Below are positions 28,357 through 64,000 of a stretch of 64,000 bases of DNA, one piece after another (position 1 is the first letter of the stretch; each line of letters starts with the position of its first letter). The translations under genes and the position numbers were made by a program. The notes beneath the pieces are model-generated. The model was given only the letters and a program-made list of their open reading frames with translations. It searched no databases and was not told the origin of the DNA. Location of the stretch: positions 124,001 through 188,000 of the forward strand of contig NZ_PXYK01000004.1 in NCBI RefSeq assembly GCF_003012745.1. The letters are read 5' to 3'. This DNA is from Kumtagia ephedrae (GTDB lineage: Bacteria > Pseudomonadota > Alphaproteobacteria > Rhizobiales > Rhizobiaceae).

Positions 28357-28409
28357 GTGACAATTTGTCCTCCCTTGTTCTAAGGTGCCTCCACATAACC
28401 GAGAAGGCG

Positions 28410-28460
28410 ATGAGCAATTCGCTTTCCTACGCGGTCAAGTCTTGGGAGGATGCGATCTAG
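28410..28460 (+). CDS. Possible 16-residue small protein within the RNA
   Basis: ATG at 28410 follows GAGAAGG with short spacing and encodes MSNSLSYAVKSWEDAI, then TAG. Amino acid use is protein-like rather than Arg-rich as in frame shadows. The terminator begins 55 bases after the stop. Coding status is unproved. Confidence 0.4.
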   Translation: MSNSLSYAVKSWEDAI

Positions 28461-28514
28461 GCGCGAGAAATTGCTGCCGCCGGACACCGGAAAGCAGATC
28501 GGACGCGTTAAAAT

Positions 28515-28543
28515 TGCAAGGCCTTGTGCCTTGCATTTTTTTT
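28515..28543 (+). terminator. Intrinsic terminator of the candidate RNA
   Basis: TGCAAGGC (28515-28522) pairs perfectly with GCCTTGCA (28528-28535) over a five-base loop, followed at once by eight T. It is a strong Rho-independent terminator on the plus strand. Confidence 0.9.
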
Positions 28544-50037: not shown

Positions 50038-50286
50038 TCAATGCCGGCGCGCCTGCACCAAATAGGCGTTGATCTCGGTCTCGCCGAGCCACTTCGCCGC
50101 CTCCAGCCGGTGCAGGCCCTCGACCAAAATGTGCCGCTTGCCGTCATGGCGCACCTGGATCGGCACCTTCAGGCCGTTTTCTAGGATGTCCTCGGCGAGC
50201 AGCCGCACCGTCTGCGGGTGGAGCGTCTTGCGCCGTCCCACCGGCACGTAGATGTCGTCGACGGGAACTTTGTGGATTCGCAGCAT
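50038..50286 (-). CDS. Small stand-alone ParB/sulfiredoxin-fold protein
   Basis: This is an 82-residue protein resembling the ParB N-terminal nuclease-like domain alone: VPVDDIYVPVGRR, VRLLAEDILENGLKVPIQVR and HILVEGLHRLEAAKWLGETEINAYLV. The last block corresponds to the ParB GEHRxxA signature, here GLHRLEA, with the Glu moved. No DNA-binding or CTP-switch partner is nearby, so it is not a partition protein. The role is unknown. It is the last gene of the strand run with the Rieske operon but lies 53 bases beyond it. Confidence 0.7.
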   Translation of the reverse strand: MLRIHKVPVDDIYVPVGRRKTLHPQTVRLLAEDILENGLKVPIQVRHDGKRHILVEGLHRLEAAKWLGETEINAYLVQARRH

Positions 50287-50339: not shown

Positions 50340-50606
50340 TTAGCAAGGAAGCCGGGCGCCCGCCCCGGGGACGGCCGCCGGCTTCGGCCCGATCTCCGGA
50401 ACCGCCACGGCGGCGAACAGCGCGCGCAGCCGCAGACCTTGCGGGCCGAGCGGAGCCCGCCGGTCGATCAGCCCGATCTGCCGCAGCGCCGCGGCTTCCA
50501 GATCGGCGCCGCGCGGAAGAGAGACCAGCCATTCCATGAAGACGTCCTCGGGTTCCGGCAGCGGTGCCGACCGGAGCGCACGGCCAAATATTTCGCCCGC
50601 GCTCAC
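50340..50606 (-). CDS. Small protein coupled to the GbcB-like reductase
   Basis: This is an 88-residue protein hidden in a longer antisense-looking frame. A GTG start at 50606 overlaps the TGA of the reductase gene (GTGA), the same coupling seen elsewhere in the window. The product reads SAGEIFGRALRSAPLPEPED, MEWLVSLPRGADLEAAALRQ and RLRALFAAVAVP, a compact helical protein with a Pro-rich tail. It is probably an accessory protein of the Rieske system; no family is recognised. Confidence 0.6.
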   Translation of the reverse strand: MSAGEIFGRALRSAPLPEPEDVFMEWLVSLPRGADLEAAALRQIGLIDRRAPLGPQGLRLRALFAAVAVPEIGPKPAAVPGAGARLPC

Positions 50607-51712
50607 GCCTCGATCTCCAGGGCCGACAGCGGCCTGGAGCAGCAGGCGAGGATAAAACCTTCTGCGATCTCGTCGTCGAGGATGCCGCCATTGTGCTGCA
50701 TCTCGACCTCGCCCGACACCTTCCTGACCCGGCAGGTGCCACACAGGCCAAACTCGCAGGCGGCGGCGATGCGCACGCCGGCGGCGCGGGCTGCCTGCAG
50801 CACCGTCTGGCCGGATAGGCACCGGCCCTCCACCCCGGAGACGCTGAAGCGGACGGGTATCGAGGCCCCCGCCTCGCCTTCCGAAGCGCCTTCGGCCGTG
50901 TCGGCGAAGGGCGCCGGCAGGGCTTCGACCGGTGGCACGCCAAAACTCTCCTGGTGGTAGCGGGCCATGTCGAAGCCGGCGGTTTCCAGCATGTCGCGCA
51001 CCGCGCGCATGAACGGCTCGGGGCCGCAGCAGAACACCTCGCGCTCGCGGAAGTCGGGCGAAAGCAGCGGCAGCCGCACCGCGTCGATGCGGCCCATATG
51101 GCCGAACCAGCTCTCGCGGCTGGAGCGCTCCTCGATGAGGAAGCCGAGCGACAGGCCCGGCATGCGGCTGCCGAGCAGCTCCAGCTCCTTGCGAAAAATG
51201 ATCTCCTCCGGCCGCCTGGCGCAGTTGACGAAGGCGACGTCGGTCCATGGGGCGCAGTCGTTCAGCCAGCGCAGCATCGACATCATCGGGGTGACGCCCG
51301 ACCCGGCGGAGACGAACAGATATTTCGCCGCCGGATGGTTGTGGTGCGAGAAATCCCCGGCGGGACCGAAGGCCCTGACGCGCATGCCGGGGAGGAGATG
51401 GTCGAACATCCAGCGCGTGCCGAGGCTGCCGGCCTGCGCCTTGACCGTGACGGCGATCGAGAACGGCCGCGACGGCGACGACGACAGCGTATAGGTGCGC
51501 ATCAGCGGGCCGTCCGGCACCGGCAGCTCCAGCGTCACGAACTGGCCGGGCTTGTAGCGGAACCAGGTCTGCGCGTCGGAGCGGAAGGTGAAGGTCTTGA
51601 CGTCCGGCGCCTCGTCGGCGACGGCGACCACCTCCAGCACCTGCAGCCGGTCGTTCCACGGCGCCATCTCGTCGAGGTGGCGGTAGAGGCCGAGATCGGT
51701 CATGGCGTTCAT
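50603..51712 (-). CDS. GbcB-like ferredoxin reductase of Rieske demethylase
   Basis: This is a 369-residue oxidoreductase. The FAD domain has RTYTLSSSP, the NAD domain has SAGSGVTPMMSMLRW and CGPEPFMRAVRDML, and the C-terminal plant-type 2Fe-2S domain has CEFGLCGTCRV with a distal Cys in FILACCSRP. This matches the reductase partner of glycine betaine (GbcB) and related Rieske demethylases. It lies 12 bases downstream of the oxygenase gene with GGGAGGGGGAG before its start. It supplies electrons from NAD(P)H to the oxygenase. Confidence 0.9.
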   Translation of the reverse strand: MNAMTDLGLYRHLDEMAPWNDRLQVLEVVAVADEAPDVKTFTFRSDAQTWFRYKPGQFVTLELPVPDGPLMRTYTLSSSPSRPFSIAVTVKAQAGSLGTRWMFDHLLPGMRVRAFGPAGDFSHHNHPAAKYLFVSAGSGVTPMMSMLRWLNDCAPWTDVAFVNCARRPEEIIFRKELELLGSRMPGLSLGFLIEERSSRESWFGHMGRIDAVRLPLLSPDFREREVFCCGPEPFMRAVRDMLETAGFDMARYHQESFGVPPVEALPAPFADTAEGASEGEAGASIPVRFSVSGVEGRCLSGQTVLQAARAAGVRIAAACEFGLCGTCRVRKVSGEVEMQHNGGILDDEIAEGFILACCSRPLSALEIEA

Positions 51713-51724
51713 CTCCCCCTCCCG

Positions 51725-52972
51725 TCAGGCGACGCTGCGCAGCGCCGGCTTACCGCCCTCGGCCAGCCGCGACTCGATGAAGCGCGCGTACCAGTCGACG
51801 AACTGGATGACGCCGCCCTCGTGCAGCTCAGAATACGGCCCCGGCTCGTAAGCCGGCGACTTGATGCCGAAGGCGTTCTCCTCGACGATGCGGCGGTCCT
51901 GGTCGTTGGTCTCGGTCCACACATGGATGAGTTCGGCCAGGTCGTAGTCGACGCCCTCGATCGCGTCCTTGTGCACCAGCCATTTGGTGGTAACCGCCGT
52001 TTCCGTGGCGCTGATCGGCAGCACCCGGAAAGTGACGGCGTGGTCGTCGAGAATGTGGTTCCAGGTCGTCGGGTAGTGATAGAGCATTAGCGTGCCGATG
52101 CGCTCGACCGCCACCTGGGCCGACAGGCTCTTCCTCACCGCCCGCTTGCCGGTCATGGTGTAGCTGACGGCGTCGCGCAGCAGCGGCGCGCGGGTGGCGC
52201 GATACTGGCCGGCGGCGTCGATGCGGAAGCGCGCCGGCAGGCCGGCCGCCTCGCATTTCGCCCAATGATCCAGCATCTCCGGGTCGCTCTCGGCGCCGTT
52301 GACCCCGGTGACCGTCGGGGCTTCCGGAAAGGTCTTGCACAGCTCCGGATGGTTGCCGGCGCAGTGATAGCACTCGCGGTTGTTCTCCCAGACGAGCTTC
52401 CAATTGCCTTTTTCGACGATGGTCGATTCGTGGGCGATCTTCGCCTCGGTCAGCCGGTGCGGCGCGAAATAGGGCTGCATCAGCGCCCGGAACGGCGCAA
52501 AATCGGCAGGCTCGTCGGCGAGGCAGATGAAGACGTAGCCGCCGACGCTTTCGCAGGCGACCGGCTTGAGGCCGAAAGCGCCCTTGTCGAAACCCTCGGC
52601 CATCTGGCGCGCGAACAGCAGTTTTCCGTCGAGGTCGTAGGTCCACTGGTGGTAGGGGCAGACGAGCCGCGCCGACATGCCGCGCTCGGCGTTGCAGACG
52701 CGGCTGCCGCGATGGCGGCAGGAATTGTGGAAGGCGCGGATGCGCCCCTCACGGTCACGCACGATCACCACCGGATAGTCGCCGACCTGCACGGTGAAGA
52801 AGCTGCCCGGCTTGGCGATCTCGCAGTCATGGCCGACGAACAGCCAGTCGCGATACCAGACCAGCTCCATGTCCAGCCTGAAGAAGTCCGGGTCGATGTA
52901 GAAGGGCTGCTCCAGGCTGAAGCCGTCGCGACGGCGGCGGATCATCCTCAGCATTTCGGTGCGTGCGTCCAT
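51725..52972 (-). CDS. GbcA-like Rieske non-haem iron oxygenase
   Basis: This is a 415-residue oxygenase subunit. The Rieske centre is CRHRG...CPYHQW (C85, H87, C105, H108). The mononuclear iron site is in the NNRECYHCAGNHPEL block (H203, H208). Its sequence style, including EQPFYID, WLVHKDAIEGVDYDL and TNDQDRRIVEEN, follows GbcA (glycine betaine monooxygenase) and the related stachydrine demethylase. The likely reaction is O2-dependent N-demethylation releasing formaldehyde; the exact substrate is not certain. The leader of this operon carries a cobalamin riboswitch, an unusual regulator for this enzyme. Confidence 0.88.
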   Translation of the reverse strand: MDARTEMLRMIRRRRDGFSLEQPFYIDPDFFRLDMELVWYRDWLFVGHDCEIAKPGSFFTVQVGDYPVVIVRDREGRIRAFHNSCRHRGSRVCNAERGMSARLVCPYHQWTYDLDGKLLFARQMAEGFDKGAFGLKPVACESVGGYVFICLADEPADFAPFRALMQPYFAPHRLTEAKIAHESTIVEKGNWKLVWENNRECYHCAGNHPELCKTFPEAPTVTGVNGAESDPEMLDHWAKCEAAGLPARFRIDAAGQYRATRAPLLRDAVSYTMTGKRAVRKSLSAQVAVERIGTLMLYHYPTTWNHILDDHAVTFRVLPISATETAVTTKWLVHKDAIEGVDYDLAELIHVWTETNDQDRRIVEENAFGIKSPAYEPGPYSELHEGGVIQFVDWYARFIESRLAEGGKPALRSVA

Positions 52973-53094
52973 GTCCTGTCCTCACGGTGCAAGGACTGAA
53001 CTGGTGGTGATGAAAGGAGGATCGGCGACGGCAGTCGGGCTGCGACCGGCCGAGCGCTTCCGCCTCTTGACCGCCCACCGCGATCAGTCGGGTT

Positions 53095-53285
53095 CCGATG
53101 CTTCAAGGCTGGTTTCCGGGCTCCGAAGCTGGCCTTGGCAGGCCCGTCCCGACACCTTCCCGGGCATTTGCCCAGTGGTCTCCCGTCGAGACGAAAACTT
53201 CGATACCGTTGCGGGGGCAGCGCCGGCATCAAACCGGCTTCCCAATTCTCCCCGCGGCCTGTCGCCGAAGGGCACCTTGAACGGG
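53095..53285 (-). promoter_or_regulatory. Cobalamin riboswitch upstream of the Rieske operon
   Basis: Read on the minus strand, the sequence gives, in order, AAGGTGCCCTTCGG, GAGAATTGGGAAGCCGG, GCTGCCCCCGCAACGGTA, CCACTGGG with GCCCGGGAAGG, and a B12-box-like GCCCGGAAACCAGCC. This is the conserved order of the alphaproteobacterial cobalamin aptamer. It ends about 120 bases before the oxygenase ATG, on the same strand. In family practice such elements repress when adenosylcobalamin is bound. Confidence 0.88.
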
Positions 53286-53385
53286 GATCATCAGACCAGA
53301 GGGCGCGGCCGGCGTCCCGCGAGAATGCGACTTCGGCTGCGTCTCCAGCGACGCCGGAAAAATAGCGGGGCTTGCTCTCCCGATT

Positions 53386-53405
53386 TGTTATGTTATTACG
53401 TTACA
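53386..53405. promoter_or_regulatory. Zur-like operator upstream of COG0523 gene
   Basis: TGTTATGTTATTACGTTACA is an imperfect 20-bp palindrome (TGT-A-GT-AT-AC-T-ACA preserved in both halves). It has the length and composition of alphaproteobacterial Zur boxes. It lies 120 bases upstream of a YciC/ZigA-type gene, a classic Zur target. Confidence 0.65.
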
Positions 53406-53524
53406 GCTCCGGTGAATGCGAATACCTCGCCGGGACGAATGGTCGTTCCTCCCAAGCGATCGTCCGCATCCGGCCCGGGCACTCGGGCCGGATGCATCCC
53501 CCAGCTCCGAACGGATTCCAAAAC

Positions 53525-54745
53525 ATGCCCGACGCAGCCAAGCCGACAAAACGCCTTCCCGTCACCGTCCTCTCCGGCTTCCTCGGCGCCGGCAAGACGA
53601 CGCTGCTCAACCACGTGCTCAACAACCGCGAGGGCCGGCGCGTCGCCGTCATCGTCAACGACATGAGCGAGGTGAACATCGACGCCGCGCTGGTGCGCGA
53701 CGGCGGCGCGAATCTTTCGCGCACGGAAGAGCAGCTGGTGGAGATGACCAATGGCTACATCTGCTGCACGCTGCGCGACGACCTTTTGAAGGAGGTGCGC
53801 CGGCTGTGCGAGCAAGACCGCTTCGACTATCTGCTGATCGAGGGCACAGGAATCGCCGAGCCTCTGCCGGTCGCCACCACCTTCGATTTCCGCGACGACA
53901 GCGGCGACAGCCTGTCGGACGTCGCCCGGCTCGACACCATGGTCACGGTCGTCGACGCGGCGAGCCTGCTTAAGGACTATTCCTCGCAGGATTTTTTGCG
54001 CGATCGCGGCGAGACGGCCGGAGAGGGGGACGACCGCGCGCTGGTCGATCTCCTGGTGGAGCAGATCGAATTCGCCGACGTCGTCGTGCTCAACAAGGTC
54101 TCGGAAGCCGCCCCGCACGATCTCGACCTTGCGCGCAAGATCGTCCGCGCGCTGAACCCGGATGCCGCGCTGGCCGAAACCGATTTCGGCAGAGTCGGGC
54201 TCGATCAGGTGCTCGACACTGGCCGCTTCGACCTCGAAAAGGCGCAGCAGCATCCGCTGTGGTTCAAGGAGTTGAACGGTTTCGGCGACCACGTCCCGGA
54301 GACGGAGGAATACGGCATCCGCTCCTTCGTCTACCGCGCGCGCCAGCCTTTCGACCCGGTTAGCTTGAAGGCTTTCGTCAACCGGCCCTGGCCGGGGGTG
54401 GTGCGCGCCTAGGGTTTTTTCTGGCTGGCGACCCGTCCGCACCATGTCGGCGAGCTCAGCCAGGCCGGCGCGCTGGTGCGGACGGGCAAGCGCGGACTGT
54501 GGTGGGCCGCCGTGCCGAAGGACCAATGGCCCGACCATCCCGAATGGCGCGCCGCGATGCGGCCCTATCTCGATCCGGTATGGGGCGACCGGCGCCAGGA
54601 GATCGTCTTCATTGGCTGCGACCCGATGGACGAGAAGGCGATCAGGGCAGAGCTGGACGCCTGCCTCGTCGCCGAAACCGGCTTCATGCCGGCCCGCTGG
54701 CGCGGCCTGCCCGATCCGTTCCCCTCATGGGAGCGGGCGGCATGA
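53525..54745 (+). pseudogene. COG0523 (CobW/ZigA-type) GTPase interrupted by an amber codon
   Basis: This is a G3E GTPase metallochaperone gene of the zinc-responsive YciC/ZigA branch. Walker A is GFLGAGKTT (18-26), and [21 protein letters not shown] and LNKV follow. Codon 296 (54410-54412) is TAG in GVVRA-stop-GFFWLATRP, where the family has Lys. The frame then continues without shift through WWAAVPKDQWPDHPEW and DRRQEIVFIG to 54745. The metal motif usually reads GCxCC; here it is GYICC (Y78), so the first Cys is missing. Two lesions suggest decay; a sequencing error or readthrough at TAG cannot be excluded. It would have 407 codons if intact. Confidence 0.85.
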
Positions 54746-55987: not shown

Positions 55988-59779
<3,792 letters not shown>

Positions 59780-61218: not shown

Positions 61219-61342
61219 GCCGGATACGCCCTGTCCGCGATGTCGGTGCGCGTCGCTTTTGAAGGCCCGCGCGTCGCCGGATGAGAAGCGGGCCCCTCCC
61301 CCTTCCGGCAATGCTCGCGCAACAGAAACACGCGAGTTGCGA

Positions 61343-61645
61343 ATGGCCGATCTCATCGTCGTCTACTGGCGCGACATCCCCGCCCAGGTCATCGTGAAAC
61401 GAGGCCGGCAGAGCGCCAAGCGCAAGTTGCCGCTGCGCTTCACCGAGGCGATCGACATGGCGGCGATGCGCTCGGGCGCGGCCGAGACCGACGCCTATCT
61501 GGCGGAGTGGCGCAAGGCCGATCCGGTGCCCGTCGGCGACGACCTCGAAGCGGAAGCCGACAAGGCGGCGGTCGAGATCGACGCCAAGTATGGCCGGGAG
61601 CGGCTGGTCGCTCTCGCGAAATCCGGCGGCAAGGAAAATGTCTGA
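61343..61645 (+). CDS. Small 'virulence factor' family protein of metVF operon
   Basis: This is a 100-residue protein from the ATG at 61343 (ADLIVVYWRDIPAQVIVKRG), with RFTEAIDMAAMRSGAAETDAYLAEWRK. It corresponds to the small protein labelled virulence factor that accompanies MTHFR-type genes in rhizobia. The label has no proven meaning here. It overlaps the next gene by eight bases, so it is part of the one-carbon operon. Confidence 0.78.
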   Translation: MADLIVVYWRDIPAQVIVKRGRQSAKRKLPLRFTEAIDMAAMRSGAAETDAYLAEWRKADPVPVGDDLEAEADKAAVEIDAKYGRERLVALAKSGGKENV

Positions 61646-62278
61646 GCCCCACCCGAACTCCACGACGGCCAAGGGGCCGGCCAACGGCACGCCCGTCGTG
61701 ACACCGCCGGCAGGCGGCGGTGTCACCCAGGCGACCATCGTCAAGAAGGCGGCGCCGAAGAGCGATTACAAGCCCGCCGACGTATCGCCGCAGCGGCGCG
61801 TGCAGCGCTCCTATTCGGTGCGGCTGTGGGCGATCCGCCATTCGCGCCTGCTCGAATGGTTTTATGCCCGCTTCGCCGACGTCTTCCTGCTCCTCCATCC
61901 GCTGTGGAAGGGTCTTGGCTACGGCCGCGTTGAAGCGCCGGTTAAATTCGTCGAGAAGCGGGTCAAGGGTTTCATGTTCGACTGCCGCATGTGCGGCCAG
62001 TGCATCCTGTCCTCCACCGGCATGTCCTGTCCGATGAACTGCCCGAAGCAGTTGCGCAACGGCCCCTGTGGCGGGGTGCGCGCCAACGGCAATTGCGAGG
62101 TCGAGCCCGACATGCCCTGCGTCTGGGTGAAGGCCTGGGAAGGCTCGCGCAACATGGTCAAGGGCGACGCCATCCTCGCCGTGCAGAAGCCGGTCGACCA
62201 GTCGCTGCGCGAGACCTCGGCCTGGTTGCGCGTCACGGCTCGCGCCGCGGCCGAGCGGGAACAGGCGAAGGTAGCCGC

Positions 62279-62282
<4 letters not shown>
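61638..62282 (+). CDS. MetV-like methylene-THF reductase C-terminal domain protein
   Basis: This is a 214-residue protein from the ATG at 61638. After a low-complexity N-terminus it carries a Cys-rich zinc/iron-sulfur type region CRMCGQCILSSTGMSCPMNCPK followed by NGPCGG. It is the MTHFR C-terminal-domain family, the MetV partner of MetF in acetogens. The last codons overlap the metF start (ATGA). It probably helps MetF use a non-standard electron donor; that is inferred from acetogens. Confidence 0.86.
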
Positions 62283-63379
<1,097 letters not shown>

Positions 63380-63532: not shown

Positions 63533-64000
63533 ATGACCCGCACGATCGTCGCCTCGGCGACCCGCGAAATCGTCATCGGCTTCGATCAGCCCTTCTGCGT
63601 CATCGGCGAGCGCATCAATCCGACCGGCCGCAAGAAGCTGGCGGCCGAAATGTCAGCCGGCAATTTCGAGACGGTCATCAAGGACGCGATCGCGCAGGCC
63701 GCCGCCGGCGCCACCATGCTCGACGTCAATGCCGGCGTCACCGCGGTCGACCCGAACGCCACGGAGCCGGCGCTGCTCGTGCAGACGCTGGAGATCGTCC
63801 AGCAGACGGTCGACCTGCCGCTGTCGATCGACTCCTCCGTCAGCGCCGCCATCGAGGCCGCGCTGAAGGTGGCAAAGGGCCGGCCGCTGGTGAATTCGGT
63901 GACAGGCGAGGAGGAGAAGCTGGAAGCGATCCTGCCGCTGGTGAAGAAATACAACGTTCCGGTCGTCGCCATCTCCAACGACGAGACCGGCATCTCGATG
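63533..64000 (+). CDS. Methyl-THF:corrinoid methyltransferase (partial)
   Basis: 156 residues are visible before the window ends. The pterin-binding TIM barrel begins FDQPFCVIGERINPTGRKKL, then AAAGATMLDVNAGV, LPLSIDSSV and PLVNSVTGEEEKLE. It is a stand-alone relative of the MetH pterin domain (AcsE/MtrH-like), which moves methyl between THF and a corrinoid protein. In related rhizobia a corrinoid protein and its activator follow; that lies outside this window. Confidence 0.88.
   Translation, partial: MTRTIVASATREIVIGFDQPFCVIGERINPTGRKKLAAEMSAGNFETVIKDAIAQAAAGATMLDVNAGVTAVDPNATEPALLVQTLEIVQQTVDLPLSIDSSVSAAIEAALKVAKGRPLVNSVTGEEEKLEAILPLVKKYNVPVVAISNDETGISM

Follow-up and report, generated by a model that had tools for sequence, protein, structure and literature searches.

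To our knowledge, enzymes that are controlled by a riboswitch and stand in for vitamin B12 (cobalamin)-dependent enzymes are known mainly for methionine and deoxyribonucleotide synthesis, the latter with the B12-independent NrdAB and the B12-dependent NrdJ. Here, we describe a cobalamin riboswitch and the Rieske oxygenase operon that it precedes in a stretch of 64,000 nucleotides from Kumtagia ephedrae (contig NZ_PXYK01000004.1, positions 124,001 to 188,000 of the forward strand; this whole stretch is called the window). Judged from sequence comparisons, the operon probably stands in, without needing B12 and under repression by it, for a betaine demethylase that depends on a corrinoid. In methionine synthesis, the known B12-independent stand-in under riboswitch control is metE, and the accessible text of PMC2211319 describes a B12-independent isozyme as being repressed by cobalamin if both isozymes are present and guesses at a similar pair for a desaturase. 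"Isozymes of B12-dependent enzymes" are also listed as a class in PMC3766115, whose main text, as far as it is accessible, mentions neither Rieske enzymes nor betaine.

For glycine betaine, MtgB, MtgC and MtgD of Ruegeria pomeroyi were described as a cobalamin-dependent route of aerobic demethylation, and more MetF2, RamA and DUF1638 protein was made on betaine (PMC12478193). The accessible part of that paper treats MtgBCD as the route of aerobes lacking GbcAB and describes no B12-regulated switch. In the genome of the window, homologues of mtgB, mtgC, mtgD, metF2, ramA and the DUF1638 gene are all present, and we propose them as the B12-dependent counterpart of the Rieske operon. The locus resembles metE/metH and nrdAB/nrdJ in that a cobalamin riboswitch stands before a B12-independent enzyme, with a B12-dependent counterpart in the same genome. 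However, metE and nrdAB are biosynthetic, whereas the Rieske target is a catabolic, O2-requiring monooxygenase, and the Rieske route would change the product, yielding formaldehyde instead of methyl-tetrahydrofolate. The operon also resembles GbcA/GbcB, as it encodes a Rieske oxygenase and a flavin adenine dinucleotide (FAD)/ferredoxin reductase with GbcA and GbcB as the best NCBIfam matches; it differs in that both subunits fall under the equivalog cut-offs and that a riboswitch lies ahead of most orthologues.

No earlier report connecting a B12 riboswitch with a Rieske or betaine demethylase was found in the open literature, as searched through titles, starts of abstracts and passages, a scope outside which most subscription papers and preprints fall. 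The two enzyme systems appear to form a new pair, in which one enzyme needs B12 and the other does not, with good comparative support. Such a catabolic pair would be added to MetH/MetE and NrdJ/NrdAB, and two betaine routes, which the accessible text of PMC12478193 presents as alternatives of different bacteria, would meet within a single cell, where the choice between them would fall to a signal that can be named.

A conserved riboswitch upstream of a Rieske operon

The cmscan program was used with Rfam 15 to search the window for structured RNAs. The search revealed a match to RF00174 on the minus strand (53294-53090), which covered the full model (positions 1-189) and showed a score of 105 bits and an E-value of 3.2e-25; the gathering score of this model is 31.5 bits. 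The aptamer ends 117 nucleotides (nt) short of the Rieske oxygenase gene on the same strand, whose ATG lies at 52972 and which is followed by the reductase gene and an overlapping small open reading frame (ORF). An earlier note on this DNA, made from the letters alone, had recognized a cobalamin aptamer on the strand of the Rieske genes about 120 bases ahead of them and had named the Rfam model as the check, and the match bears this out in both identity and position. Upon scanning positions 52900-53600, we found no sigma-70 promoter and, on the minus strand from the aptamer to the start codon, no terminator.

The unit of riboswitch and operon is real and conserved. In what follows, G denotes a genome and L a fetched locus, and G000 is the genome of the window, which contains five cobalamin riboswitches in total. 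Homologues of the oxygenase were collected from a family set of 199 genomes, which was later widened to other families of the order. Among the 199 family genomes, matches with at least 64% identity formed one group that was separate from the matches with 57% or less, and the final set comprised 87 orthologues with identities of at least 62%. A profile of the five G000 riboswitches served to search the fetched loci, which were mostly of 20 kb. A riboswitch was found directly upstream and on the same strand in 62 of the 87 orthologues, directed at the Rieske transcript as it is in the window. The Rfam model confirmed the riboswitch in the weak or distant loci submitted to it, whereas the 23 family loci classed as riboswitch-less, as well as L180, L186, L188 and L189, gave no match to it. 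Scores near 100 bits across the whole model occurred in many lineages. Of the best 80 loci from a collection of named organisms, 58 carried the riboswitch according to our own profile; they included Mesorhizobium, Aminobacter, Sinorhizobium/Ensifer, Labrys, Pannonibacter and Inquilinus, among others, and the riboswitch-less loci included the three Agrobacterium records and Rhizobium phaseoli. Mesorhizobium ciceri (L219) and Ensifer adhaerens (L278) are among the species with the riboswitch. Distant homologues with 53-58% identity branched apart from the orthologues; a riboswitch was present in L187, L190 and L192 and absent from L109-L111, L188, L189, L191 and L193-L202. Eleven paralogues with 41-50% identity (L112-L122) were excluded from the gene tree, and seven further distant homologues (55-59%) were kept in it (94 rows) outside the 87 orthologues.

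Orthologues with 70-85% identity were also present in L212 (Inquilinus limosus), L242 (Sphingomonas paucimobilis) and L250 (labelled Arenimonas), genera that we take to lie outside the rhizobial order. The riboswitch was present in L212 and L250 and absent from L242. These cases may reflect horizontal transfer or mislabelled bins.

The oxygenase contains the Rieske and the catalytic domains of a non-haem iron oxygenase (PF00355 and PF00848, both above cut-off), and G000 holds only one close copy of its gene. The best NCBIfam match of the oxygenase was GbcA (NF058607; 516.3 bits, equivalog cut-off 670) and that of the reductase was GbcB (NF058606; 376.2 bits, equivalog cut-off 500). Because both subunits score under these cut-offs, the term "GbcA/GbcB-like" used in the earlier note is correct, and plain "GbcAB" would be wrong. 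The closest solved structures were 3vca, 4qup and 3n0q (541 to 538 bits), with the match to 3vca/4qup reaching approximately 541 bits across 397 residues. We take 3vca and 4qup to represent the Stc2-type stachydrine (proline betaine) demethylase; the oxygenase is related to them by sequence, and Stc2 is not among the rows of our tree. By kinship, the oxygenase is classed as a quaternary-amine demethylase and not as a certified GbcAB.

The third member of the operon, an ORF of 88 amino acids (aa), gave no match in Pfam and NCBIfam searches. An ORF at the equivalent place showed 50% identity over 70 aa in L055 and 54% over 50 aa in L052, and ORFs of 82-105 aa located 3' of the reductase gene fell into two clusters (c35 and c42) from seven loci (L045, L048, L050, L052, L053, L055 and L063). 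Its product is possibly a third subunit or an accessory protein. Just 3' of the operon, a short ParB_N-like ORF (50038-50286, minus strand) scored under the Pfam cut-off.

Co-occurrence of the riboswitch with MttB-family genes

If the Rieske enzyme replaces a corrinoid enzyme, then the riboswitch is sensible only where the corrinoid enzyme exists. G000 contains the genes for the proposed B12-dependent counterpart, namely, those for five MttB/MtgB-type corrinoid methyltransferases (PF06253, hereafter MTTB) and for MtgC-like, MtgD-like and RACo proteins. One of the five MTTB genes is close to the genes for the MtgC-like corrinoid protein and a DUF1638 protein. We found MTTB in 143 of the 199 family genomes. 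Among the 87 orthologues, the riboswitch and MTTB occurred together in 60 cases, the riboswitch alone in two, MTTB alone in three and neither in 22. MTTB accompanied 60 of the 62 riboswitch-bearing orthologues versus three of the 25 riboswitch-less ones (Fisher p = 2.5e-15, with relatedness ignored), and the riboswitch was absent from 22 of the 24 orthologues in MTTB-less genomes.

A prediction fixed before the search was then compared with the named collection, in which 49 of 52 named loci were searched (L255, L271 and L246 were left out); the remaining 28 of the 80 loci, each with a riboswitch and most of them from Mesorhizobium, had been excluded in advance. MTTB was present in 29 of 29 riboswitch-bearing genomes and absent from 19 of 20 riboswitch-less ones. 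After the removal of seven with genes identical to those of the first set, the counts were 25 of 25 and 16 of 17, which corresponds to 41 of 42 genomes predicted correctly. The sole miss was Ciceribacter lividus (L262), which has MTTB and no riboswitch, and the riboswitch was missing from all 16 of the further genomes without MTTB.

General B12 use was considered as a cause of riboswitch loss and was discounted. At least one cobalamin riboswitch was present elsewhere in each of the 23 riboswitch-less family genomes; therefore, these genomes still have genes under B12 control. Genes of the methylmalonyl-coenzyme A-mutase type (PF01642) were found in 47 of 48 genomes with the Rieske riboswitch and in 19 of 23 without it, and since they mostly persist where it is lost, the riboswitch is not linked to B12 enzymes at large. 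The presence of the Rieske gene hardly tracked MTTB, as an orthologue was present in 48 of the 143 MTTB-bearing versus 23 of the 56 MTTB-less family genomes. The stand-in is therefore presumably optional, and only its riboswitch follows MTTB. For other orphan riboswitch targets, a search for what vanishes along with the riboswitch may point to the B12-dependent partner.

We compared the neighbours of the operon in relatives, as the earlier note had proposed, and found that the operon adjoins riboswitch-headed metE and nrdAB in some of them. At least one of metH, metE and nrdAB was present within the fetched stretch at 16 of 47 riboswitch-bearing loci versus none of 20 riboswitch-less loci; among the 47, metH was seen at nine, nrdAB at five, metE at four, and metE or nrdAB at seven. 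Every metE and nrdAB seen at these loci has its own B12 riboswitch. In particular, L051 and L054 carry metE and nrdAB on both sides of the Rieske operon, each headed by a riboswitch. NCBIfam confirmed one copy each of MetE (L055), NrdA (L063) and NrdB (L054). Additionally, a riboswitch-headed BtuB-like receptor gene and a binding-protein gene lie directly 3' of the Rieske operon in L052 (4657-7774) and L053, with the families checked in L052. The stand-in and uptake genes found at these loci are all of kinds already known for B12.

Proposed switch and alternative explanations

Base pairing in the leader was counted in 25 of the 62 leaders, which came from the part of the tree that holds the window and included the window itself. 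A second set of 24 leaders, three of them shared, aligned poorly near the start codon and was left uncounted. Directly after the aptamer lies a hairpin, which we take to be, probably, P13 of the riboswitch. The anti-Shine-Dalgarno segment (52996-52990) is complementary to 52984-52978; its pairing there is compatible with the hairpin, and the two form the proposed OFF state. The proposed ON pairing, between 53089-53075 and 53007-52994, competes with both. Across these leaders, the ribosome-binding site keeps its pattern of pairing: the OFF pairs were kept in 95.4% and the ON pairs in 97.8% of the cells, with maxima of 49.8% and 51.2% when the partners were slid. L178 carries a compensatory change in each pairing, and a single letter change suits both states. 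Ligand binding is predicted to favour sequestering of the ribosome-binding site.

With sufficient B12, the ligand-bound fold of the riboswitch would sequester the ribosome-binding site of the Rieske gene, and betaine would be demethylated via MtgB, MtgC and MtgD, with the methyl group passed to tetrahydrofolate. If B12 or cobalt became scarce, MtgC would be unable to work, and the riboswitch would free the ribosome-binding site at low B12. The oxygenase and reductase made from the freed operon would then strip a methyl group using O2 and NAD(P)H and release formaldehyde, as GbcAB does. The earlier note had supposed that a shortage of B12 switches on demethylation with O2 in place of methyl transfer by corrinoid enzymes; both the division of the 87 orthologues and the 41 of 42 new genomes lend this comparative support, which does not extend to the distant homologues. 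We lean towards a wider reading as well, in which the B12 riboswitch sets a fork for one osmolyte, between corrinoid methyl transfer and O2-dependent Rieske demethylation with formaldehyde, and in which the riboswitch of this third, catabolic pair follows the MttB family in rhizobia and in certain other alphaproteobacteria.

Several results weigh against this proposal. Neither subunit reaches its NCBIfam cut-off, and the PF06253 profile cannot separate substrates. The two orthologues with a riboswitch alone (G169 and G094) belong to one genus and have weak aptamers of 56 and 61 bits, and MTTB occurs without the riboswitch in G102 and G174 (one genus), G381 and L262; the latter four may be useful for learning whether another regulator replaced the riboswitch. 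A first prediction, made for 11 distant homologues with 53-58% identity, was correct for seven. All six MTTB-less genomes lacked the riboswitch (in G491, 489 nt upstream were covered), and just one of the five MTTB-bearing genomes had it, with four predicted wrongly; for this reason, the rule is claimed for orthologues only. As many as 95 of the 143 MTTB-bearing family genomes, including the two other genomes of the genus of the window, have no Rieske orthologue. The gene tree was used in place of a species tree, and the sign test on the starred-branch pairs alone gave a median p of 0.125 with 87 rows and 0.06 with 94 rows, both above 0.05. In the leaders, 326 of 500 shuffles for the OFF state and 21 of 500 for the ON state matched the observed pairing, as most pairs scarcely vary and there is little covariation. 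Searches for a stem between leader and Shine-Dalgarno region in single sequences reached p < 0.05 over shuffles in only eight of the 62 leaders, so we infer the translational mechanism from the conserved alignment.

The best-surviving alternative concerns the substrate, which may be another quaternary amine of the MttB family, such as proline betaine, carnitine or gamma-butyrobetaine, under the same switch logic. This is possible but less likely. It would fit the Stc2-type structures as the nearest solved relatives, the missed GbcA cut-off and the presence of five MTTB proteins in G000. However, a large protein that combines GcvT-like and sarcosine-oxidase-like regions is encoded near the MtgB of G000. 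Six family genomes have the riboswitch and exactly one MTTB gene, and in all five that were fetched (G187, G117, G042, G140 and G047; G014 was left out), this gene adjoins homologues of mtgC, the DUF1638 gene and mtgD. The MTTB protein of G187 matched the solved 4yyc with 1039 bits and 9yce, a "glycine betaine methyltransferase", with 414 bits. An OpuAC betaine-type binding protein is encoded close to the single MTTB gene in L170 (G047). Finally, the 68% orthologue in L096, which has no riboswitch and lies in an MTTB-less genome, stands among OpuAC/ATP-binding cassette (ABC) transport, GbdR-like regulator and sarcosine oxidase genes, which is where betaine genes were seen beside a Rieske orthologue. 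Because of the single-MTTB contexts with mtg genes, the OpuAC protein in L170 and the betaine/sarcosine surroundings in L096, glycine betaine appears to be the likeliest shared substrate.

Shared ancestry, in which a few lineages lost both traits without one loss causing the other, would explain why several riboswitch-less genomes cluster in the tree and why the sign test on the starred branches fails to reach 0.05. We consider it unlikely. The gene tree required 11 changes of the riboswitch and 10 of MTTB, and these move together; in the independent pairs on starred branches, joint movement was seen in approximately 4.3 of 5 and movement in opposite directions almost never. A two-trait Markov model, which we built ourselves and ran on a quick tree with a midpoint root, favoured dependence (likelihood ratio 38.9, 4 degrees of freedom, p = 7e-8), with riboswitch loss rates of 31 per unit branch length when MTTB was absent versus 0.19 when it was present. 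Additionally, the single-lineage losses in G008, G107 and G097 have nearest tree rows that keep both the riboswitch and MTTB.

The operon could instead feed B12 synthesis, with betaine breakdown at low B12 providing both glycine and the methyl groups that the corrin ring requires; it would then be part of the supply branch of the regulon instead of being an isozyme. In G000, the four remaining riboswitches head cbtA-cobU-cobO, cobW-cobN and bluB genes and a periplasmic-binding-protein ABC transporter gene, that is, cobalt and cobalamin genes along with a transporter, and the accessible text of PMC9699165 ties the betaine pathway to cobalamin production in Pseudomonas. Such a role is nevertheless improbable, as riboswitch-less genomes keep other cobalamin riboswitches (23 of 23) yet miss the Rieske one together with MTTB, on which the supply of precursors would not hinge, and as the genes of the classic isozymes, metE and nrdAB, lie beside the operon in some relatives. 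It is least probable of all that the aptamer is a relic or works in the opposite direction (ON with B12), as the weakened aptamers kept without MTTB in G169 and G094 might suggest, because whole-model scores near 100 bits recur in many lineages, the leader with its anti-Shine-Dalgarno segment is conserved, the riboswitch is rapidly lost once MTTB is absent, and such genes are described as cobalamin-repressed when both isozymes are present in the accessible text of PMC2211319.

Features of the window and surrounding genes

The features of the riboswitch, the operon, the leader and the corrinoid-related genes are listed in the table.

Table. Position, strand and supporting evidence of the features discussed, numbered from the first letter of the window. 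NAD, nicotinamide adenine dinucleotide.
Feature	Positions	Strand	Evidence
Cobalamin riboswitch aptamer, RF00174	53090..53294	-	cmscan 105 bits; upstream of 62/87 orthologues
Hairpin after aptamer, UGAUCGC-GGUGG-GCGGUCA	53068..53086	-	Paired in 98.9% of the cells of 25 chosen leaders; a compensatory change in one pair
Proposed ON helix, 5' side (GACUGA and GGUGG)	53075..53089	-	Predicted to pair with 53007-52994; paired in 97.8% of cells; highly conserved; one compensatory change
Proposed ON helix, 3' side (CCACC and UCAGUC)	52994..53007	-	Predicted from the alignment of leaders
Putative anti-Shine-Dalgarno segment GUCCUUG, sharing GUC with the ON helix	52990..52996	-	91.9% of cells paired to the Shine-Dalgarno region
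Shine-Dalgarno region GAGGACAGGAC ahead of ATG	52973..52983	-	Sequence; conserved in leader alignment
Rieske oxygenase, GbcA/Stc2-like quaternary-amine demethylase	51725..52972	-	Pfam Rieske and Ring_hydroxyl_A; NCBIfam GbcA 516 bits, cut-off 670
Reductase, GbcB-like, with FAD, NAD and 2Fe-2S ferredoxin domains	50603..51712	-	Pfam; NCBIfam GbcB 376 bits, cut-off 500
Small ORF, 88 aa, starting with a GTG that overlaps the stop of the reductase gene	50340..50606	-	Homologues after the reductase in relatives
metH, B12-dependent methionine synthase	55988..59779	-	NCBIfam PRK09490, 2175 bits
Small "Virulence_fact" (PF13769) ORF	61259..61645	+	Homologues accompany mtg genes in relatives
metV-like gene	61590..62282	+	Methylene-tetrahydrofolate reductase C-terminal, PF12225
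metF2-like gene	61991..63379	+	ORF as listed; likeness to the mtg-cluster ORF of relatives judged by eye; name from the accessible text of PMC12478193
mtgD-like pterin:corrinoid methyltransferase gene	63533..64000, on to 64507 past the window	+	NCBIfam PRK07535, 394.7 bits, cut-off 259

The earlier note had also placed metH and a methyl-tetrahydrofolate methyltransferase operon within 13 kb of the Rieske genes, and both indeed lie inside this distance, the latter starting at 61259 and running past the end of the window. The true start of the metF2-like gene is probably near 62.28 kb. Beyond the window, the mtgD-like gene is followed by a gene for a RACo/RamA-like corrinoid activator (65025-67127), as recognized by its RACo domains.

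Between the riboswitch and metH, we observed a gene for a divergent COG0523 GTPase (53525-54412, plus strand), whose nearest match was ZigA with 465 bits against a cut-off of 600 and whose frame spans 283 of the 390 profile positions. Upstream of this gene lies the palindrome-like sequence TGTTATGTTATTACGTTACA, which may resemble a Zur box. Farther away, the alphaproteobacterial small RNA ar9 (RF02343) was found at 28395-28542 on the plus strand with a score of 110.5 bits.

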